This document shows, piece by piece, positions 53,953 to 64,000 of a stretch of 64,000 nucleotides of DNA. Below the pieces are notes generated by a model that saw only the letters and a list, made by a program, of their open reading frames with translations, made no database searches and had not been told where the DNA came from. The stretch is from Desulfovibrio sp. TomC. Its GTDB lineage: Bacteria > Desulfobacterota > Desulfovibrionia > Desulfovibrionales > Desulfovibrionaceae. Each line of letters starts with the position of its first letter. Position 1 is the first letter of the stretch. The translations under genes were made by a program, and so were the position numbers. The DNA is taken from positions 124,001 through 188,000 of the forward strand of contig NZ_JSEH01000009.1 of assembly GCF_000801335.2 (NCBI RefSeq), written 5' to 3'.

Positions 53953-55038
53953 ATGCCGATATCCGTCCTGCTCGTTGACGACGAGCCACTCTATGCAGCG
54001 CTGCTGGCGCAGCGGCTGACCAGCCGCGACTTCTCGGTGACGGTTGCGGCCGACGGGGACGAGGCGCTGCGCGCGGCGGCCGCGTCCCCGCCGGATCTGG
54101 TGCTGCTCGACGTCAATTTGCCGGGGAAAAACGGCATCGAGGTGCTGGCCGATCTGAAACAGGCCGGGTTTGCCGGCGAGGCCCTGATGCTGACCGGCCA
54201 GGCCGGGGTGGAATCGGCTGTGGCCGGCATGAAGCTCGGAGCAGCCGATTATCTGTCCAAGAGCCTGGATTTCGACGAACTTGTGGCGGCGCTGACCCGG
54301 GCCTACGGCCGCAAGCTGGACCGGGCCGAGTCCTCCCGGGTTATCGAAGTCGACCGTCTGGCCGCGCTGGGCCGGGTGGCCGAGGGAGCGGCCCACGAAA
54401 TCAACAACCCGGTCACGGTCATGACCACCCTGGCCGGCTGGATCGAGGACCTGTGCGACGATCTGCCCGAGTCCTGCGCCGAGACGGCGGACGAAATCCG
54501 CCAGTCGGCCCGCCAGATTGCCGGGCAAGGCACGCGGATCAAGGGGATCATGCTCAACCTGCTCAAGTGCGGCGGCCGCTTCGATCCGCGCCCCGCGAGC
54601 ATCCGTCCCCGCGAGGCCGTGGATGCTGTCCTGGCCGACCGGGCCGGGCGCATCCAGGAACTTGGCGTCGTGTGCGACAACGCCGCCCCCCAGAATCTGG
54701 TGGTCTGTTTCCCGCCCGGGGCCTTGGAATTGGTCTGTTCGGTGCTGGTGGACAACGCCCTGGACGCGGTGGCCGGCCGGGACGGCCGGGTCCGCATCGA
54801 GGCCGCCGCCGGCGACGGGGCCTTTACCTTGACCGTGTCCGACGACGGGCCGGGCATTGCCGCGGCCGTGGCCGGACGCATCTTCGAACCGTTTTTTTCC
54901 ACCCGCGACTCCAACACCCGAAGCGGCCTGGGGCTGGCGGCGGCGCGCGGCGTGGCCCGGGGCCTTGGCGGCGACATCACCTACGAGGACCGCCCCGGCG
55001 GCGGCTGCCGGTTTATCGCCCGTTTCCCCGGTTTCTGA
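53953..55038 (+). CDS. Soluble REC-histidine kinase hybrid
   Basis: 361 residues; GGAGGAGACGG before the ATG. An N-terminal receiver (1-120; Asp53 in LLDVNLPG, Lys in LSKSLD) is joined to a DHp with His148 (GAAHEINNP) and an HATPase ([39 protein letters not shown]). No membrane helix, so it is cytoplasmic. A receiver ahead of a kinase core suggests that an upstream phosphorelay step controls its activity. Last gene of the third TauE/phosphorelay run. Confidence 0.9.
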   Translation: MPISVLLVDDEPLYAALLAQRLTSRDFSVTVAADGDEALRAAAASPPDLVLLDVNLPGKNGIEVLADLKQAGFAGEALMLTGQAGVESAVAGMKLGAADYLSKSLDFDELVAALTRAYGRKLDRAESSRVIEVDRLAALGRVAEGAAHEINNPVTVMTTLAGWIEDLCDDLPESCAETADEIRQSARQIAGQGTRIKGIMLNLLKCGGRFDPRPASIRPREAVDAVLADRAGRIQELGVVCDNAAPQNLVVCFPPGALELVCSVLVDNALDAVAGRDGRVRIEAAAGDGAFTLTVSDDGPGIAAAVAGRIFEPFFSTRDSNTRSGLGLAAARGVARGLGGDITYEDRPGGGCRFIARFPGF

Positions 55039-55074
55039 TTTATCCGTTTCCCCTTTTCCCTCGTGCGTTGCCGG

Positions 55075-56010
55075 TCAGGCCGGCTGCCGGCTGTCCTCGC
55101 GGCGCTCCAGCCGTTCGGACTGGGCCTGGATGAATTCCCGGGTCTCGATGGTCGGGAGGCAGTGGGCCGTGCGTTCGAAATCGGCCTGCCGGTAGATGTC
55201 GCTCTGGTAAAAGCCCCGGCCCACCTTGGTCATCACGTCCTGGACCCCTTCAATGCGCATGGCTACGGCGCGCAACTGCTTTTCCAACCGCTCCAGAAAC
55301 AGAACCCGCCGGTTGATGGTCAGGGTGACCCGGCCGTTTCTGGCCGCGACGGCCACGCCGTGGCCATGGCCGGCGAGGACGGTTTCCACCCGTGCGCCCA
55401 GGAGAAAGTCCCGGGCAGCGGCCCGGGAGGCCTCGGTCGGGCGCACGGCCGGATCGTTCTGGTGGCCGAGGATCAGGGCGGCGGCGGCCTCGGGGGCGGT
55501 CTTGTCCATGGGCACGAGCAGGTCGTACAGGGCCGGGTCCCAGGGGTCGGCCTGGCCGGTGACCAGACGGGTCCAGGCAACGTGGTCCGTGTCGTTTCGT
55601 TCCAGGGCCGGCCGGGCCTCGGCGGCCGGCAACCCGGCCTGCGTTGCGACATGCAGACGGCTGGCGGCGTCGGCAATGAGGCACACGGCCAGAACGTGGG
55701 TGATGCGGCGCGGCACAAGCACGGCGCACCATCCGGTCAACAGCAGGTTCTCGTCCTCGACCAGCCGGGTGGCCAAGGCCAGGCGCAGCCAGGCGAGCCC
55801 CTGCTCTTTGGCGTGGCTACACCGGGCCAGAAACGGCGTCCTGGCCGCAAAGACCTGGCTGATCCGGTCCGGCTCCAGCCCCGACAGGTCGGCGGCGGCC
55901 TGGATGAGCGCGCTGTCGGTGACGATGGGGCGTCCCGTGGCCTTGGCCAGGGCAGCGACAACGGCCTCTTCCTGGCAGTAGAGTCCGCTGGAAAGCGATA
56001 CAACGGTCAT
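55075..56010 (-). CDS. Cytidylate-kinase-like protein with BON-like C-terminal domain
   Basis: 311 residues; AAGGAG before the ATG. The N-terminal part (VVSLSSGLYCQEEAVVAALAKATG ... TDSALIQAAADLSGL) follows the Cytidylate_kin2 pattern, but the nucleotide P-loop is degenerate (SGLYCQEEA with no GK[ST]). Residues about 225-285 (VAVAARNGRVTLTINRRV ... RIEGVQDVM) look like a BON domain, which binds membranes or ligands. Probably a non-catalytic sensor or regulator. Convergent with the phosphorelay genes. Confidence 0.6.
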   Translation of the reverse strand: MTVVSLSSGLYCQEEAVVAALAKATGRPIVTDSALIQAAADLSGLEPDRISQVFAARTPFLARCSHAKEQGLAWLRLALATRLVEDENLLLTGWCAVLVPRRITHVLAVCLIADAASRLHVATQAGLPAAEARPALERNDTDHVAWTRLVTGQADPWDPALYDLLVPMDKTAPEAAAALILGHQNDPAVRPTEASRAAARDFLLGARVETVLAGHGHGVAVAARNGRVTLTINRRVLFLERLEKQLRAVAMRIEGVQDVMTKVGRGFYQSDIYRQADFERTAHCLPTIETREFIQAQSERLERREDSRQPA

Positions 56011-56235
56011 TGGCGACTCCTTGGTGCGCATGCACGGCGCTTGCGGTGTTTTTGTATACGCCGGTTGGGGCTGGTGCGCCAGAGGAGGAGGCCACGGTCC
56101 GGGCTGGTCAGGCTGGTTGGTCAGGAGAGGGGGGCTTGGCCGAGCGTTTCTGGGGCGCTGCCGCCCGGCCCTGACCGTAGGGTCCAGGGGCCGGGCGGCA
56201 GGCCGCAGCGGCACAGGCGGCCGGAGATTGCGCGC

Positions 56236-57867
56236 TTAAGCGTAGGAGCGGGTATGGGTGTTGTTGGCCAGGGTCTTCTTTTTCATGGCCAAAATAACAT
56301 CGACCACAGCCGCCACCACGTCCTCGACGTCTTTGGCGTTGTTGCAGATGGTTGGCGAAACGCGCAGCAAATCGTGGCCCATGACCTTGAGGTTGGCGAT
56401 GGCGAAGCGGTGCTGCTCGTACACGTGCTTCATGACGTCGCCGGCGACGATGCCGTCGGGCGTCTTAAAGAGATAGACCGAGCTGCGCAGCCGGGCGTTG
56501 CTGGTTGGCGTGGCGATCCACTGGGCCGCGGTTTTCGGGGTGAAGTCTGGGAAGACCTTGGGCAGGTGTTTGAACAGCGCCTGCTGGACCTGTCCGCCCA
56601 GGTAATGGATGCGGGCTTCGATTTTGGCCGGGGTCACGCCCGGGTGCAGCTGGCCGGTGTGGAACAGGGCCGCCATCCAGGTGGCGACCAGGGTGGCGTC
56701 GTTTTGCTGGCCGAGATAGGAAAACCGCTTGGCGTTGGGGTCGATGGTCCCGGTACTGGCCGCAAAGCCGTAATCAGCCGGGGTGTTGATGTATTCGTCG
56801 TAGCCCCAGATGCTTGGGGTGAAGCGCTCGGCCGCGCCGTGCTTGTTGTTCATGTACAGGATGCCGACCATTTTCGGGCCGCAGGGCCATTTGTGGAAGC
56901 TGCCGGCGATGCTGTCCACGTCCACCTGTCCGAGCTTGAGGTCGAGGACGCCGAAGGTCTGGGCGCTGTCGGCGTGGATGTGGATGTTCTTGTTGACCGC
57001 GCGCAGCTCCGAGACGATGCGCTGCATGGGCAGGACCATGCCGCATTCGTTGGACTGCCAGGACAGGGTCACCAGTTTGGTCCGCTCGTCGACCAGGGCG
57101 AGCAGGGCGGCGATGATCTCGTCCTCGTTTTGCGGGTCCGAGGGGATGGTGCCGGCCTTGCGTTCCGCCTCGGTCACGGAGCTGGCAAACATCTTGGTTT
57201 TGAGAATGCGAATCGAGTCCGCGCCCCATCCCTGGGTGGCCTTGCGGTACATCCAGGCGTCGTAGTTGGTGGGATGGTTGACGTCCCAGACCACGATATT
57301 GTCCTTTTGCGGGTCCATGAAGCCGGAGGTCACGAGGCCGTTATTCACGAAGTTGTTGCCCATGGTGGAATTGGCTGTGAGCGCCAACAGGAAATCGGCC
57401 TTGGCGTCCGATCCGCCGAGGCCGAACCAGTCCTTGACCGCGGTCAGGCCATGGCCAAGGCTGGCCTTTGCCAGTTCGCCGCGCATGGGAAAGGAGATGT
57501 CGGCTTCGAGCAAATCGCGCACCAGGGCGGCCATCCGGTTGACCGGCTTCAAGGACGGGCACAGGTTGGCGGCGTTGACCGAGATGGAGGCGAACCCTTT
57601 GCGGTCGAAATAGTGGTTGAGCAGGCGATCCCACTGGGCGTTGTTGTCGCTGGCCAGGGCGTCGGCGGCAAAGGCCCGGCCCTCGGCGCGCAGTTCGTCG
57701 ATCAGCGCCTTGATGCGGGCCATGGCCTGTCCGGCGGCCAGACTGGTTTGTCCGGGTGCGGACGTTTTGGCTTTGGCGGCCCCGAAGGCCATGCCGGGCA
57801 GCATGGCCATGGAGCCCGCGCCAAGAGCCATCAGGCCAAAAAATTTGCGACGGGAGACGCTATTCAT
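56236..57867 (-). CDS. Tat-exported class V aminotransferase-fold PLP protein
   Basis: 543 residues; AAGGAGGGA before the ATG. The N-terminus has a twin-arginine signal (SRRKFFGLMALGAG), so the folded, cofactor-loaded protein should be exported. The body is an aminotransferase class V fold: Asp300 in HADSAQTFG and PLP lysine Lys326 in GSFHKWPCGP. Relatives include isopenicillin N epimerase-like and cysteine desulfurase-like proteins; the reaction cannot be read from sequence. A periplasmic PLP enzyme is unusual. Confidence 0.85.
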   Translation of the reverse strand: MNSVSRRKFFGLMALGAGSMAMLPGMAFGAAKAKTSAPGQTSLAAGQAMARIKALIDELRAEGRAFAADALASDNNAQWDRLLNHYFDRKGFASISVNAANLCPSLKPVNRMAALVRDLLEADISFPMRGELAKASLGHGLTAVKDWFGLGGSDAKADFLLALTANSTMGNNFVNNGLVTSGFMDPQKDNIVVWDVNHPTNYDAWMYRKATQGWGADSIRILKTKMFASSVTEAERKAGTIPSDPQNEDEIIAALLALVDERTKLVTLSWQSNECGMVLPMQRIVSELRAVNKNIHIHADSAQTFGVLDLKLGQVDVDSIAGSFHKWPCGPKMVGILYMNNKHGAAERFTPSIWGYDEYINTPADYGFAASTGTIDPNAKRFSYLGQQNDATLVATWMAALFHTGQLHPGVTPAKIEARIHYLGGQVQQALFKHLPKVFPDFTPKTAAQWIATPTSNARLRSSVYLFKTPDGIVAGDVMKHVYEQHRFAIANLKVMGHDLLRVSPTICNNAKDVEDVVAAVVDVILAMKKKTLANNTHTRSYA

Positions 57868-58376
57868 GGGAGAGTCCCTCCTTGAAGGGTTTCGAGCTTT
57901 ACCGGGGTGAATGGTCGGGAAAGCGCCCCGGAGGATGCGTTCGTTTCGTCTGCTGGCGACCGATGCGGATTTCACCTTGTCTGTTAGCACTGCAACGGAC
58001 TGTCTGGAAAGCCGGTTCGCAAAGAAAACAACCTGAAGTTTCCGTTTCAGGCCCGGGGCGGCTGTTGTGGCGCCGTCGCAGCGGTCTGGCAGAGATCTGG
58101 CAAGGCGGCGCACGGCTGCAGCGCAAGGGGGGGCGTGTTGCGCCGCTGCGGTCCTGGGTGCGGCGAATGTATCTTGTGATATTCTACAGCGCCCAGATAT
58201 GGATTCGGCATTATTGGTATACAGTGTAAACTTATGCTTCAGGCGAATCCTTCCTTCTGTATAGATACTATCCACCAGCTTTCTCACAAAAACAGCAACA
58301 GGCTTGAATAACCGCGTGTTTTCCTATGGCATCGCTTTTGCTTGGAAAGGTTCATTCTGTTTCCATGGAGGACACA
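57868..58376. other. Divergent intergenic region (509 bp)
   Basis: Separates the Tat PLP gene from the small secreted protein. The left half should hold the PLP gene promoter (not placed). The right 50 bases contain the sigma-54 promoter at 58327. Base composition falls towards AT between about 58160 and 58330. No convincing gene or clear enhancer palindrome is seen. Confidence 0.45.
58327..58342 (+). promoter_or_regulatory. Sigma-54 promoter of the small secreted protein
   Basis: TGGCATC-GCTT-TTGCT: a close match with GG and GC ten bases apart. Predicted start near 58353 leaves a 24-base leader with GGAGG. Confidence 0.75.
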
Positions 58377-58652
58377 ATGAGAGCGATTGCAGCGGGATTG
58401 GCTTTGGCCGTGGTGTTGATGACTGGCGCCCAGGCCCTGGCCTCTTGGGGGGACGGGACCGGGGCGTGGTGGATGGACGGCGACGAAGCCCCTGTCGCGG
58501 CGGGAACCGGCGTGTGCGGCACGTGCACCGGTGGTCAGGCCTTGGGCGGCCAGGGCGCAGGAACCGGCCTCGGCCTTGGTCTTGGCTTTGGCGACGGCAC
58601 CATGCCGGCCCCCCAGGACGGCACGGGTTTCGGCAGCCCCTGGACGCGCTAG
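58377..58652 (+). CDS. Small secreted Gly-rich protein
   Basis: 91 residues. Signal peptide (1-22, ending QALA), then a short Trp/Asp segment (WGDGTGAWWMDGDE), a Cys pair CGTC (47-50) and a glycine-rich tail with alternating hydrophobics (GTGLGLGLGFGDG). GGAGGACACA precedes the ATG; sigma-54 promoter upstream and strong terminator downstream make it a stand-alone unit. Function unknown. The strict promoter suggests high, conditional expression. Confidence 0.75.
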   Translation: MRAIAAGLALAVVLMTGAQALASWGDGTGAWWMDGDEAPVAAGTGVCGTCTGGQALGGQGAGTGLGLGLGFGDGTMPAPQDGTGFGSPWTR

Positions 58653-58680
58653 ATAATTTTACAGCCGACTGATTTGCGAA

Positions 58681-58720
58681 AAAGCGCGTTGCGGTGTGTC
58701 CTCCCGCAGCGCGTTTTTTT
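58681..58720 (+). terminator. Rho-independent terminator
   Basis: GCGCG-T-TGCGG pairs with CCGCA-GCGCG (one bulged T) and is followed by seven Ts. It ends the small secreted protein gene and marks the left edge of the low-GC island. Confidence 0.9.
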
Positions 58721-58898
58721 ATTTTGGGAGCGTGGGGGGACTATTCAGCATGACGATGGCCTTTGTGGCTGGCCTTACAATTCTTAGCTGTGATATCAGA
58801 CAGGGGAAATGTCACACTAAAGACAGTTCTTCATGAGTTTTTATTTGGAGAACGCTAATGAATTTCGAACGGATGTTCTCTGTTTATGGTTTAATATA

Positions 58899-60860
58899 TT
58901 AAGTACCACTTGTCTTGGCTGTTTTGAATATGTTTTCGTACTTATCAAAAAGGTGCTGGATGCCTTCTTCGCGAGAAGCTTCAATTTCGAGTTTTTGCCT
59001 AAAGAATTCATAACGATACTTTGCTTCGTGCAAAATATCACTCCATTTTTTTATCCAGATAGTCGCATTGCCTTTGCTAAAGATGCAACCGTATGGTCGG
59101 TCGTCTGAATTTGCTTTAGTTTCTGCAAACTTGCTAAAATCATTGCTTATTAAGTAAAATGTCCATATCACGTCGCTTTTTGAAAAACGTTCGTCGTCGA
59201 TCACTGAAAACGCATATTTTTCAATCTGTGTGATTTCGTCGGGTCCGATCTTAACCCTTGGTGCCTTTAGCTCAAGTACTAAATGCTCAAATTTTTTATC
59301 AGGCCGGGTGATCTTCCTTGACATCATTATGTCAGGAATTCCGCCTTCGTCAGTTATTAACTTGACATCACCAATCTGTTCGGCGAGGTCGGAACGGTCC
59401 AAATGCCGTAAGTGTTTTATTAGTACTTGTTTTAAAGATTCGTCATCGGTGTCTAGAGTGTATTGTTCTCCAAAAACCCACAATTCATGGACTAGTAGTC
59501 TGTGAAGCTGTGTTCGTTCGCGAAGATGCTTTTTCCATTCTTTGGAAAATATAATTTCTTCAAGCCCAAGAATCGTGTCAATGCGCTTTGTGACTATGTT
59601 CGCTGCATTTAGTACTGATTCTAGGCTTGTTCTTTCAAGTAGCTCAGCGAGTTCGTCTTGCTTGTCTTTGGGAAGTCGCAATACTTCATTGATTATTTTG
59701 ATTGCATTTTGTGGTTTATTTTCTATGGCTTGACGCAAAAGACGTAAAGTTAATTCTTTGGCGTCATTTTCTCCGTCTCTGAAGGGTTTGTGGTGTTCGT
59801 ATACGCGAGCGGCGACAATATCAAAAACTTGCGATTCTGCTTTTTTGACAGGATGAGAAATCTCATCTTCTGTGAACGGGTAGATTTTGTCCTCTTTCCA
59901 TTTCTCGACAATTTTTGAGGCTTCTTCTGCCGCGAGTTCCGTGAAGTAGTTTCTAATTTTATCTTTGGCTGTGTCTAATAAAGCTTTGTACTTTTGGTTT
60001 AAAGTTTTGGCAGCGAGTTCATTCGTTTTGTATAGTTCGTCAATTGATTCTGATTGTAAATATGCAGTAAAATCATATCCTGGGAACTTAATAATCCCAT
60101 CGATCTCATCTCGTGAGAAGCCTTGCGTGTCGCACAAATATAGTTTTTTGCCCTTGTATGCTATATTCCACTCAATGATAGTCAGCTCTGCCTCTCCAGT
60201 TATATCTTGGATCGTCTCCAGTATGAATTTCTTCTTTCGTTTAATCGTAAGGGATGGATCTAGAGCTTTGCGATCATATGTAACATTTACATCTTTGTAC
60301 TGCATCAAATACAAAGCTATGCTCTGAAGAATATCGACCTGAGAAGTATTTGCAACGAGTGTGTCCACCTTTTTGTCGGATATTTGGTCAATCCTTAATA
60401 CCGTTCCCGTCTTGTGAAAGGTTGTTTCTTTGGGTTCGGTAGAACGATAGGAATTTAACTTGTCTTTTATTACGCTAATTTGGTAGGAATAGAGTTTCTC
60501 GTTGCGCTTGAAAGTTGTGTTCCATGTTGCATGCGCTCCAAGTGCGAAGGCTTTGAATCTTCCTTGGCCAAGTGATCCATGGACAGTGCGACCTTCTGGT
60601 GTTCTTGTTCGAATTTTTTTTAGAGAATCTCCAATTTTCCCAAATGATGAATCAAGTTCACTCGGATCAATCCCATCTCCGAAGTCTTTTACTTCAATTG
60701 CAGAAATTCCACCAAGATTTGAAGTTTCAAAAGTAACTTCTACTGCGGAGCCTCCGGCATCAAGGGCATTCCAGATCAACTCAACAATGGCCGTTGTAGG
60801 ATTAGATCGTGAAAGCCTATCTAGATGGTCTTGCGTTGTCTTAACGTTCCCTATTGCCAT
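58899..60860 (-). CDS. GHKL (HSP90-like) ATPase with C-terminal PD-(D/E)XK-type nuclease domain, candidate defence gene
   Basis: 653 residues. N-terminal Bergerat ATPase: Glu27-Asn31-Asp34 (VELIWNALDAGG), DFGDGI (59-64), and GSLGQGRFKAF (95-105). A long helical middle (about 250-480). The C-terminal domain has IPDIMMS (Asp510), LVLELKAP (Glu530, Lys532) and EITQIEKY (Gln545), a D-x19-ExK nuclease core, followed by IWTFYLISND and IWIKKWSDIL, reminiscent of DUF4263/Shedu-like nucleases. Base composition is near 40% GC against about 65% for neighbours, with AT-rich codons: strong sign of transfer. A single-gene anti-phage system is the leading idea; no partner gene is present. Confidence 0.75.
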   Translation of the reverse strand: MAIGNVKTTQDHLDRLSRSNPTTAIVELIWNALDAGGSAVEVTFETSNLGGISAIEVKDFGDGIDPSELDSSFGKIGDSLKKIRTRTPEGRTVHGSLGQGRFKAFALGAHATWNTTFKRNEKLYSYQISVIKDKLNSYRSTEPKETTFHKTGTVLRIDQISDKKVDTLVANTSQVDILQSIALYLMQYKDVNVTYDRKALDPSLTIKRKKKFILETIQDITGEAELTIIEWNIAYKGKKLYLCDTQGFSRDEIDGIIKFPGYDFTAYLQSESIDELYKTNELAAKTLNQKYKALLDTAKDKIRNYFTELAAEEASKIVEKWKEDKIYPFTEDEISHPVKKAESQVFDIVAARVYEHHKPFRDGENDAKELTLRLLRQAIENKPQNAIKIINEVLRLPKDKQDELAELLERTSLESVLNAANIVTKRIDTILGLEEIIFSKEWKKHLRERTQLHRLLVHELWVFGEQYTLDTDDESLKQVLIKHLRHLDRSDLAEQIGDVKLITDEGGIPDIMMSRKITRPDKKFEHLVLELKAPRVKIGPDEITQIEKYAFSVIDDERFSKSDVIWTFYLISNDFSKFAETKANSDDRPYGCIFSKGNATIWIKKWSDILHEAKYRYEFFRQKLEIEASREEGIQHLFDKYENIFKTAKTSGT

Positions 60861-61223
60861 GCTTCACCATAACTATTGTTCTATAGTGTTCGGACGCAAT
60901 CATTTAAGACGATTCCTTTCAATTTCCAGGGAACATCCCAAATTACAAACTTTGACTAAATTAACTTCCCAGTGCTCATAACGCAACCCATATATTTGGG
61001 GCCCTTCCGTGTTTTTCAGGGGTTGCCCTGCTAACGCCTGGTTTGCTATTCTCAGGAAGTACAGGCGTACTGGAAAGAACACTTCCAGCCAGTGCCGAAA
61101 CGGTAACGGGTCGGAGCCGGCGTTGTGCCGGTTCCGACCCGTTGGCGCTACGCCAGGGGCGCTTTCCCCCCGGCTTCGCAGTCCGGGAGCGGCAGGCCGC
61201 CACTCCCGGTTGTATGACGCACT
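60861..61223. other. Intergenic region right of the island
   Basis: AT-rich to about 61000 (promoter side of the ATPase-nuclease gene, TTAAAT and TATAGA at 16-base spacing possible), then GC-rich with stacked hairpins. A 60-codon frame on the minus strand (60900-61082) has no ribosome site or known motif and is not annotated. No integrase, tRNA or clear attachment repeat. Confidence 0.4.
61105..61143 (-). terminator. Strong hairpin downstream of glyA
   Basis: AACGGGTCGG-A-GCCGGC, 4-6 base loop, then GCCGG-TT-CCGACCCGTT: an almost perfect 17-18-bp stem about 80 bases after the glyA stop. No T-tract, so it is a probable factor-dependent terminator or a 3' end stabiliser. Confidence 0.5.
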
Positions 61224-62462
61224 CTACCACGCGAAAAGCGGAAAGCTCTTGGCAAAGGGCTGCACTTCTTTGCGGATCTCTTCGAGCTTGGTGTCGTTGC
61301 CCACAGCCTTGATGGCCGCGTCGATCCAGGTCACGATCCTGGCCATGTCGGCCTCGACCAGACCGCGGGTGGTCAGGGCCGCCGTGCCCAGACGCACGCC
61401 CGAGGTGACAAAGGGCGAACGGGTCTCAAAGGGCACGGTGTTCTTGTTCGAGGTGATGCCGGCCAGATCCAGGGCGTGCTCGGCGTCTTTGCCGGTCACG
61501 TCCGTGTTGGTCAGGTCCATCAGCACCAGATGGTTGTCCGTGCCGCCGGAGACCAGATCATAGCCCAGGGCGGTCAGCCCGGTGGCCAGGGCCTGACAGT
61601 TTTTCACCACCTGGCCCTGATAGACCTTGAAGGTGGGTTTGAGCGCCTCGCCAAAGGCCACGGCCTTGGCCGCGATCACGTGCATGAGCGGGCCGCCCTG
61701 GATGCCGGGGAAGATCTGGGAATTAAGCGTCTTCCCGTTGTCCTCGGTGGACAGGATCAGGCCGCCGCGCGGACCGCGCAGGGTCTTGTGCGTGGTCGAG
61801 GTGGTGTAGTGGGCATACGGAATGGGCGAAGGGTGGTGGCCGGTGGCCACCAGACCGGCGATATGGGCCATGTCGACCACGAGCTTGGCCCCGACTTCGT
61901 CGGCAATGGCCCGGAAGCGCGGGAAGTCGATGATGCGCGGGTAGGCACTGGCTCCGGCCACGATGACCGTCGGGCGGTGCTCTTTGGCCAGCCGTTCGAC
62001 CTCGTCATAGTCGATGGTGCCGGTCTCTTTGCGGACGTGGTAGAAAACGATGTTGAAAAGCTTGCCCGAGAAGTTGACCGGCGAGCCGTGGGTGAGATGG
62101 CCGCCGTGGGAGAGGTCCATGCCAAGCAGGGTGTCGCCGGGCTTCATGGCGGCGAAATAGACGGCCATGTTGGCCTGGGAGCCGGAATGGGGCTGGACGT
62201 TGGCGTACTCGGCTCCAAACAGGGTCTTGACCCGGTCGCGGGCCAGATCCTCGGCCATGTCCACGTACTCGCAGCCGCCGTAGTAGCGCTTGCCCGGATA
62301 ACCTTCGGCGTACTTGTTGGTGAGCACGCTGCCCTGGGCCTGGCGGACGGCCACGGAGACGAAATTTTCAGAAGCGATCATTTCGAGCTTGCCGGTCTGG
62401 CGCTCGATTTCCAGGCACACGGCCCGCCCGACTTCGGGATCGGCAATAAGCAGGTCTTCCAT
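61224..62462 (-). CDS. glyA: Serine hydroxymethyltransferase
   Basis: 412 residues, normal length. PLP enzyme that interconverts serine and glycine with tetrahydrofolate, main source of one-carbon units. Signatures: [34 protein letters not shown] and PLP lysine Lys226 in [18 protein letters not shown] chosen after AAGGAGACG; a longer frame has no ribosome site. It follows fabF by 96 bases in the same direction. Confidence 0.97.
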
Positions 62463-62558
62463 GGGCGTCTCCTTCTCAATGCGTTCGGGGGGAGGCCCGA
62501 TCATCGGACATCCCCCCGTGTGCGGCAATGTGGCCGGGCGCGCGGTCCGGCCTCGTCA

Positions 62559-63803
62559 CTACTCGGCAAAGGCCTTGAAGATCAGGCTGGCGTTGGTGCC
62601 GCCAAACCCGAACGAGTTGCAAAGCACACTTCCCACGGCCATCGTGCGGGCGACGTTTGGCGTATAGTCCAGGTCGCACACCGGGTCCGGGGTGTCCAGG
62701 TTGATGGTGGGCGGGATGACGCCCTCCATGATGGTCTTAACACTCATGACCGACTCGATGCCGCCGGCAGCGCCTAAGCAGTGGCCGATCATGGACTTGT
62801 TGGAGGTCACCGGCACCTTGTAGGCATGGTCGCCGAACACGGTCTTGATGGCCGTGGTCTCGCAAGAGTCGTTGAGCGAGGTGGAGGTGCCGTGGGCGTT
62901 GATGTGGGCGATCTCGGAGGGGGCCATGCGCGCCTCGCGCAGGGCGGCCCGCATGGCCAGGGCCATGCCGGAACCGTCCTCGGGCGGAGCGGTCATGTGG
63001 TAGGCGTCGCCCGATGCGCCAAACCCGGCCACTTCGGCCAGGATGCGCGCGCCGCGGGCGGTTGCGTGTTCCAGGGATTCGAGCAGCAGCAGGCCGCAGC
63101 CCTCGCCCATGACAAACCCGTCGCGGTCGGCGTCAAAGGGACGCGAGGCCTTGGCCGGATCGTCATTGCGGGTGGACAGGGCCTTTAAGGCATTAAATCC
63201 GCCAACCGCCAGGGGCGTGATGGTGGATTCGACGCCGCCGCAGATGGCGGCCGTGGCCCGGCCGAGCATGATGTCCGAGGCGGCGTAGCCGATGCCGTGC
63301 AGTCCCGAGGCGCAGGCCGAGGTGGTGCAGACATTGGAGCCGCGCGCGCCGGTGGCAATGGAGACCTGCCCGGCGGCCATGTTGGCGATCATGGTCGGGA
63401 TGAAAAAGGGCGAGACACGCGAAGGGCCCTGTTCCATGAGCTTGGCGTGGGTGGCTTCGAGGGTTTCGAGGCCGCCCAGACCGCAGCCGATGATGACGGA
63501 AACCATCTCGGCTTCCTCAGGGGCGATCGTGTACCCTGCGCTCTCCATGAGCATCATGGCGGTGGACAGGGCGTAAATGGTGAAACGGTCGAGACGTTTG
63601 GCCAGCTTGGCCGCGACAAACGGTTTGGAATCGAAGTCTTTGACTTCGCAGGCAAAGCGCGTGTCGTAGGCCGTGGCGTCGAACCTGGTGATGGGGGCCG
63701 CGCCAGAGACGCCGGCCACAAGGTTCTGCCAGCTGCTGGCCAGATCGTTGCCGAGGGGGGTGATGGCCGCAAGGCCGGTAACGACTACCCGATGTAAGGT
63801 CAT
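62559..63803 (-). CDS. fabF: 3-oxoacyl-ACP synthase II
   Basis: 414 residues. Condensing enzyme of fatty acid elongation. Catalytic Cys164 in NVCTTSACASGLHG, and the two His of the triad in INAHGTSTSLND and NKSMIGHCLGAAGG; terminal NSFGFGGTNASLIF is typical. ATG after GGAAG. It follows acpP directly, the usual order in bacteria. Confidence 0.97.
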   Translation of the reverse strand: MTLHRVVVTGLAAITPLGNDLASSWQNLVAGVSGAAPITRFDATAYDTRFACEVKDFDSKPFVAAKLAKRLDRFTIYALSTAMMLMESAGYTIAPEEAEMVSVIIGCGLGGLETLEATHAKLMEQGPSRVSPFFIPTMIANMAAGQVSIATGARGSNVCTTSACASGLHGIGYAASDIMLGRATAAICGGVESTITPLAVGGFNALKALSTRNDDPAKASRPFDADRDGFVMGEGCGLLLLESLEHATARGARILAEVAGFGASGDAYHMTAPPEDGSGMALAMRAALREARMAPSEIAHINAHGTSTSLNDSCETTAIKTVFGDHAYKVPVTSNKSMIGHCLGAAGGIESVMSVKTIMEGVIPPTINLDTPDPVCDLDYTPNVARTMAVGSVLCNSFGFGGTNASLIFKAFAE

Positions 63804-63875
63804 GGCGCTTCCGTCCGCAAGCCGGGGCGGGCAGAAAGCCGCAACGCCGCCCCGGCCCGACTGGGCGTTTGGGGC

Positions 63876-64000
63876 TTATTCGCCCTTTTTCTTTTCGATA
63901 AAGGAGATGGCGTCCTGGACTTTCTGGATCGTCTGGGCATCCTCGTCCGAGATTTCGACGCCAAATTCTTCTTCCATGGCCATGATCAGCTCGGTCAGAT
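63876..64000 (-). CDS. acpP: Acyl carrier protein, C-terminal half (5' end outside window)
   Basis: Only the last 41 codons are visible: [20 protein letters not shown] followed by [20 protein letters not shown]. This is the helix II to C-terminus part of ACP. The phosphopantetheine serine (DSL) would lie just beyond the right edge. Gene order acpP-fabF supports the call. Confidence 0.93.

Follow-up and report, generated by a model that had tools for sequence, protein, structure and literature searches.

A laterally acquired GHKL ATPase-nuclease gene of the paraMORC3 kind in Desulfovibrio sp. TomC, a probable stand-alone anti-phage system

The window analysed here is a stretch of 64,000 nucleotides from Desulfovibrio sp. 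TomC (contig NZ_JSEH01000009.1, positions 124,001 to 188,000). It contains a gene of 653 codons, open from ATG to TAA, whose product joins an N-terminal GHKL ATPase domain to a C-terminal restriction-endonuclease-like domain (Table 1). The frame lies where an earlier note, made from the sequence alone, had placed it, and the residues named there (E27, N31, D34, DFGDG at 59-63, GSLGQGRF at 95-102, D510, E530, K532 and Q545) all stand at the numbers assigned to them. When the 2.3-kb insert that carries the gene was shuffled 300 times by mononucleotides, the longest open stretch reached 168 codons, as compared to the 653 codons of the real sequence, and inspection of the ORF list by eye showed this one long ORF only in the insert. 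The low GC content of the gene relative to its surroundings, also noticed earlier, holds (39.9% as opposed to 63.9% for glyA and 61.4% for the aminotransferase ORF on the opposite side) and is more pronounced at third codon positions (37% versus 85% in glyA); the dip is limited to about positions 58738-61076.

Table 1. Features of the locus, in window coordinates
Feature	Position	Strand	Evidence
Gene for a 653-aa GHKL ATPase / PD-(D/E)XK nuclease of paraMORC3 architecture	58899..60860	(-)	ORF, alignments, model
GHKL (Bergerat-fold) ATP-binding domain, residues 1-165 (approximate boundary); E27, N31, D34, D59-G-x-G63, G98-x-G-R101	60366..60860	(-)	Pfam HATPase_c_3, E 1.8e-14; MORC/TRAP1 folds
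S5/transducer-type domain, residues 166-315 (approximate boundary)	59916..60365	(-)	Fold comparison, alignment
Middle segment, mostly helical, residues 316-435	59556..59915	(-)	Secondary structure of the model
Restriction-endonuclease-like nuclease domain, residues 436-653; E448-D510-E530-x-K532-Q545	58902..59555	(-)	C-part model, pTM 0.82; nuclease folds; SduA_C profile match
Low-GC segment missing in congener G489; single-gene insertion between two convergent genes	58738..61076		Congener comparison, GC
glyA (serine hydroxymethyltransferase), flanking host gene, conserved in congeners, outside the system	61224..62528	(-)	Congener DNA matches, Pfam
Small flanking ORF, DNA partly conserved in congeners, outside the system, no Pfam match	58326..58652	(+)	ORF list, congener DNA

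In the genus, 14 of 14 genomes searched, that of TomC included, have DNA that matches the flanks, but no match overlaps the gene in any of the other 13. When these 13 congeners were searched at the protein level no orthologue came up, the full protein being found in its own genome only. Two weak matches were not counted as orthologues, namely one in G491 (26% identity over residues 19-549, E 2e-8), which lies elsewhere in that genome, and one in G489 that is confined to residues 20-74. The insertion site was compared in eight regions from seven congeners, among which the interval of G483, with its flanks on two contigs, is not informative. In G489 both flanks lie on one contig and adjoin one another without the gene, 134 bp taking the place of the 2339 bp found here, which agrees with the earlier claim that the gene has no partner. 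Five other congeners have 2.1-3.2 kb of different sequence between the small ORF and glyA, and in one of them (G449; L206:1531-3323) this interval carries a gene for an AAA_21 ATPase and an overlapping DUF4276 gene, with a GC content of 52% versus 61% for the fetched locus; for L203, L204, L205 and L207 the interval translations were inspected only visually. Varied cargo thus seems to be accepted downstream of glyA, a site that may act as a minor cargo hotspot in the genus. As for traces of the insertion event, the insert is surrounded by short, chance-like repeats, and neither a target duplication nor an inverted repeat was clearly visible. Promoter and terminator scans stayed near chance level, Rfam gave no match within 55000-64000, and the window contains no tRNA. 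An artefact of contamination was considered and rejected, as the gene is located inside a contig of 214,943 bases and is flanked by genes common to the congeners. These results support the conclusion that the gene is mobile and recently acquired. The possibility, raised earlier as one that would speak against a defence role, that it is a vertically inherited housekeeping gene is not borne out within its genus, given the 13 congeners and the empty site.

Single-sequence scans of genome contigs and of viral contigs found no relatives, and the matches of such scans at family and phylum level, most of them short (about residues 20-75), were read as MutL-type and excluded from the family. The genome scan worked once plasmid and phage matches had yielded an alignment and a profile-derived motif. 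By tblastn, 46 plasmid records carry a relative, and in 36 of these the match covers 80% of the query or more, at identities of 24-38%. The hosts include Streptomyces, rhizobia, Phaeobacter, Psychrobacter and Deinococcus, and 24 of the 46 records are predicted to be conjugative or mobilizable. Two Pasteurella phage records carry a relative as well, and the PHROG family phrog_6203 spans nearly the entire protein (E 2e-64). One motif, followed by tblastn, gave 358 candidate loci in species-representative genomes. The 80 best were fetched; their matches each span at least about 620 residues, large chromosomal contigs are among these loci, and the encoded relatives measure 649-699 aa except for one with an early stop (L144). 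At 72 of the 80 loci, a count that includes the cut ORF of L144, the GC content of the gene is lower than that of the locus. Full-length matches occur in only 2 of the 395 genomes of a phylum sample, TomC included. Among 196 Vibrio genomes scanned, five contain full-length window-like relatives and four contain full-length proteins at 21-23% identity, the remaining matches being partial. Some plasmid copies are broken by, or end beside, insertion elements (L060, IS5, Methylobacterium; L065, IS3, Paracoccus yeei; L070, IS21, Sinorhizobium meliloti Rm41), which is consistent with a dispensable gene.

Three alignments underlie the residue counts. A1 consists of 20 rows (the window protein, 18 hand-picked plasmid and phage homologues and one genome homologue), for which the motif was no criterion; A2 has 73 rows, the window protein and 72 of the 80 genome loci by our own selection; and A3, an alignment of the C-terminal domain, took 61 of the 80 loci, again by our selection. 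L144 was among the loci left out of these sets. In A1 the residues E27, N31, D59, G61, G63, K81, G98, G100, R101, E448, D510, E530, K532 and Q545 are present in 20 of 20 rows and D34 in 19. In A2 E27, N31, D34, D59, G61, K81, G98, G100, R101, E448, D510, E530 and K532 are invariant in all 73 rows and G63 and Q545 are each kept in 72, the invariance at the N-terminus being partly built in because the A2 loci were gathered by an N-terminal motif. The nuclease core D510-E530-K532-Q545 proposed earlier thus stands, but it had overlooked a further invariant acid, E448, which is the first glutamate of the E-D-ExK set. In the GHKL superfamily E27 corresponds to the general base and N31 serves Mg binding. 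At position 238, where 68 of the 73 A2 rows have R or K, lies a candidate for the basic finger of the S5/transducer-type domain.

The A2 tree places the window protein, with support 100, together with four sequences from Planctomycetota, which at 41-45% identity are also its nearest relatives. When the tree is labelled by phylum it requires 19 label changes, the least possible number being 14 and the shuffled mean 43.7; it therefore clusters by phylum, so that transfer between phyla looks infrequent and the family does not appear to be freely exchanged. The TomC genome contains dsrA above its curated cut-off, suggesting a sulfate or sulfite reducer, and the grouping with Planctomycetota therefore does not look vertical.

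An AlphaFold2 model of the full-length protein built on A2 has a mean pLDDT of 89.9, and its pTM of 0.61 leaves the arrangement of the domains uncertain. Residues 7-315 best match the ATPase module of MORC3 (Z 20.5, 283 aligned residues, 3.8 A, 14% identity) and also those of MORC2 and MORC4, TRAP1 and Hsp90 coming after; by sequence, the ATPase is closest among solved structures to MutL-family proteins. MORC proteins and TRAP1/Hsp90 act in chromatin or as chaperones and are not known to carry a nuclease domain, and their likeness to the window protein, at about 14% identity, is one of the ATPase module fold. Since the structure search with the whole model gave exclusively ATPase-type entries among the matches listed, the C-terminal domain was modelled separately. 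Folded alone, these 218 residues reach a pLDDT of 85.2 and a pTM of 0.82 and match mainly nucleases, so that the C-terminus is nuclease-like, as had been proposed. The best match is 2vld, which we take to be NucS (Z 9.9, 105 aligned residues, 2.3 A), followed by EndoMS (Z 9.7), AF1548, an entry titled as of unknown function (Z 8.9), the small subunit of R.BspD6I (Z 8.7), the nuclease domain of B. cereus Shedu (Z 8.4, 133 aligned residues, 3.8 A), the defence protein Upx (Z 8.4) and E. coli SduA (Z 7.5). In Foldseek the C-terminal domain had two matches at E<=0.001, 2vld and EndoMS, and ranked third was a domain of a rhomboid protease (E 1e-3, rmsd 10.6). NucS and EndoMS, which rank slightly above Shedu, are mismatch nucleases with a role in mismatch repair, and to our knowledge they carry no fused GHKL ATPase. 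As Z scores near 8 can reflect a common arrangement, more weight is due to the conserved E-D-ExK set and to a profile link: hhalign of A3 against 11 SduA_C proteins gave 94.5% and E 7.5e-8, with the D, the E-x-K and the Q aligned.

The relation to DUF4263/Shedu nucleases suspected from the sequence therefore holds at the level of profile and fold but does not extend to recognition by the Pfam SduA_C model, which is absent among the matches of the window protein at E<=1. This model gave no match anywhere in the TomC genome, was equally silent on 14 controls and did match 14 of the 395 phylum genomes. Because it fails on the window protein, we file the protein as paraMORC3 and say that it works like the GHKL-Shedu proteins instead of filing it as Shedu. 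At E<=1 the Pfam families HSDR_N_2 and PDDEXK_9 are touched by 18 and 2 of the 20 A1 members, all 20 of which match HATPase_c_3. Two PADLOC models of type II restriction enzymes are touched by 17 and 14 A1 members and the SduA model by 2, and against PADLOC-DB 2.0.0 the relatives give only partial restriction-enzyme, Cas4-type and similar matches. A sequence search of the PDB with the nuclease profile returned a single designed repeat protein (E 0.22) and nothing else. For the window protein itself PADLOC-DB 2.0.0 has no match and Pfam names the ATPase domain alone, an annotation gap that a profile such as A2 would close for the candidate loci.

The earlier note knew of no named architecture that fits the protein; comparison with the literature supplies one. 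Iyer, Abhiman and Aravind (2008) defined paraMORC3 as GHKL + S5 proteins with an extra C-terminal domain of restriction-endonuclease fold carrying E-D-ExK, and described the group as sporadic across distant bacteria, with a subset of stand-alone genes (PMC2292703). Four features were compared, by description rather than residue by residue, and all four are shared with no difference among them: a GHKL domain with intact ATP motifs at the N-terminus, an S5-type domain behind it (Z 18.7-20.5 when residues 7-315 are compared by VIA-align with the ATPase modules of MORC proteins), the additional C-terminal nuclease domain with E-D-ExK (all rows of A1 and of A2; nuclease folds), and a wide but sporadic distribution with lateral mobility, though the tree clusters by phylum. 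A GHKL-type single-gene Shedu protein of equal layout, VcSduA from pandemic Vibrio cholerae, was tested against phages in a study of 2025 (Nat Microbiol). According to that report it protects against Drexlerviridae in E. coli and against vibriophage X29 in its own host, activity is abolished by E27A and by K557A, cultures were protected at all MOIs tested, which its authors read as direct restriction with host survival, and the layout is connected by them with paraMORC3 and with Shedu type I-D (PMC12137116). The window protein shares with VcSduA, as described there, the GHKL ATPase with Glu27, the C-terminal PD-(D/E)xK domain and the single-gene layout, a likeness of architecture only. Both features that we compared with Shedu type I-D at the level of alignments, folds and insert are present, namely the GHKL N-terminus with a PD-(D/E)xK C-terminus in a single-gene system and a C-terminal nuclease homologous to DUF4263/SduA_C proteins (hhalign; Shedu structures). 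The distance between the glutamate and the lysine differs, being 530 residues in VcSduA (27 to 557) and 505 in the window protein (27 to 532); it is 497-525 across the 73 rows of the subfamily, so that the value of VcSduA falls outside, and an attempt to place VcSduA by this spacing failed, as none of the relatives measured, those from Vibrio included, has a spacing of 530. Canonical SduA (E. coli 8ps4; B. cereus 8ti8/8ti9) is related by profile and fold in its C-terminal nuclease. The E. coli protein carries an N-terminal DNA-end clamp. We know of no GHKL ATPase at its N-terminus. In the open-licence literature we found no functional test of the window protein or of close relatives and no recognisable paper on the window-like branch besides PMC2292703 and PMC12137116.

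The neighbourhoods of the relatives are rich in defence genes. At E<=1e-10, the products of the two nearest genes on either side at 33 loci (132 proteins) hit 139 PADLOC models, as opposed to 20 models hit by 132 control proteins encoded far away on the same contigs; these figures count models, which overlap one another, and not proteins. Both sets began with 34 loci, the pair L143 and its control L235 being left out, and the neighbouring genes were called by a simple script. Among the matches listed, the models of the neighbours include type I restriction, DRT4, DRT6, DarTG, SoFic and Mads, and those of the controls include ShosA, PsyrA, Zorya, SoFic and BrxL. In plasmid and phage records, the gene at L050 overlaps by 4 bp with that of a type IIG/ISP restriction enzyme. 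At L052 its surroundings encode Drt2 together with a methylase and an endonuclease of the LlaMI family, at L062 a DRT-group reverse transcriptase-nitrilase, and at L059 a IIG-type enzyme two small genes away. Hachiman-like helicases are nearby at L061 and L064; at the former (L061:7944-14604, Paracoccus versutus) the gene is followed after a 2-bp gap by a weak HamA-like gene and then by a HamB-like helicase gene, a possible composite operon with a Hachiman-type system. Ordinary neighbours are found at several loci too, such as L056 with conjugation genes, L065 with min genes and transposases, and L067, and in the Pasteurella phages the gene lies amid tail genes (L054:9759-11717 and L055:8001-9959). 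Of nine neighbours selected by visual inspection, PADLOC matched all but two. Since the neighbours vary by locus, we rejected the idea of a fixed partner gene. As separate observations, the Pmp3 phage copy has anti-repressor genes both upstream and downstream, and a 1258-aa protein encoded upstream of the Salmonella copy (L051:3017-6793) is matched by neither Pfam nor PADLOC at E<=0.001.

Conservation, predicted folds, the empty site and the defence-rich neighbourhoods of the relatives support the view taken earlier of a GHKL ATPase and PD-(D/E)XK nuclease encoded by a stand-alone, laterally acquired gene. We consider it very probable that this gene specifies an ATP-gated DNA nuclease of the paraMORC3 / GHKL-Shedu kind that acts against phages and other mobile elements, cutting invading DNA while the host survives. 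By analogy to VcSduA, Shedu and MORC/MutL proteins, binding of ATP at the Bergerat site would cause the GHKL-S5 module to close as a dimeric clamp on the invading DNA; closure and hydrolysis would then bring the C-terminal PD-(D/E)XK domains, with E448, D510, E530 and K532, onto that DNA, which would be cut without the host being killed.

But would the host be the one to benefit? The plasmids and prophages that carry the gene may use it to exclude rivals, the host copy being a relic of such an element, and with the mechanism unchanged such a weapon of mobile elements is compatible with the reading preferred here. The many plasmid records, more than half of them predicted to move or be mobilized, the position amid tail genes in two Pasteurella phage records and the near-complete coverage by a PHROG family all point in this direction, and yet the insert has just this one long ORF and large chromosomal contigs are among the fetched loci. 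We regard this alternative as possible, if doubtful. An outcome by abortive infection, in which host DNA is cut too and the infected cell is killed instead of the phage being restricted directly, would suit a stand-alone nuclease with no methyltransferase in the 2.3-kb insert, and heterologous expression of Shedu can be toxic, as stated in PMC12904381. The protection of VcSduA cultures at every MOI tested (PMC12137116) argues against it, and we think it unlikely.

Least of all do we expect a vertically inherited ATPase-nuclease of DNA repair, a housekeeping gene in the manner of MutL or NucS. The solved sequence relatives of the ATPase, the nearest nuclease folds and the clustering of the tree by phylum could be taken in its favour, but an orthologue is found in 0 of 13 congeners and is absent from the orthologous G489 site, full-length matches occur in only 2 genomes of the phylum sample, TomC included, and the GC content is low; this explanation is already disfavoured and highly improbable.

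Direct restriction of invading DNA remains our preferred reading, and the protein adds a further member to a family that was predicted in 2008 and of which one protein of equal layout was tested in 2025, so that its novelty is low. Single proteins of this kind could show in vitro what triggers a nuclease-coupled ATPase of the MORC type, the candidates being DNA ends, branched or unmodified DNA, and DNA topology. We also entertain, with little confidence, the idea that the large window-like branch, distinct from a second branch in Vibrio (21-23% identity), is not simply Shedu but combines a MutL/MORC clamp with a NucS-like nuclease in one polypeptide, which would sense a DNA structure of the replicating phage (a branch, a mismatch or an end) by ATP-driven closure and cut there. 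If true, this would be the logic of mismatch repair turned to immunity, and it would offer a bacterial model for the compaction or looping of DNA by MORC ATPases.

The second Vibrio branch of GHKL-nuclease proteins is represented by L179, L180, L181 and L182. A reverse-strand ORF of 655 aa at L189 encodes a more divergent GHKL protein with a nuclease-like IELKK...Q end and perhaps belongs to a separate family, and the weak match in congener G491 lies in an open frame of 645 aa (G491:C1:2519104-2520672), whose product may be a remote member of the kind to which the window protein belongs.
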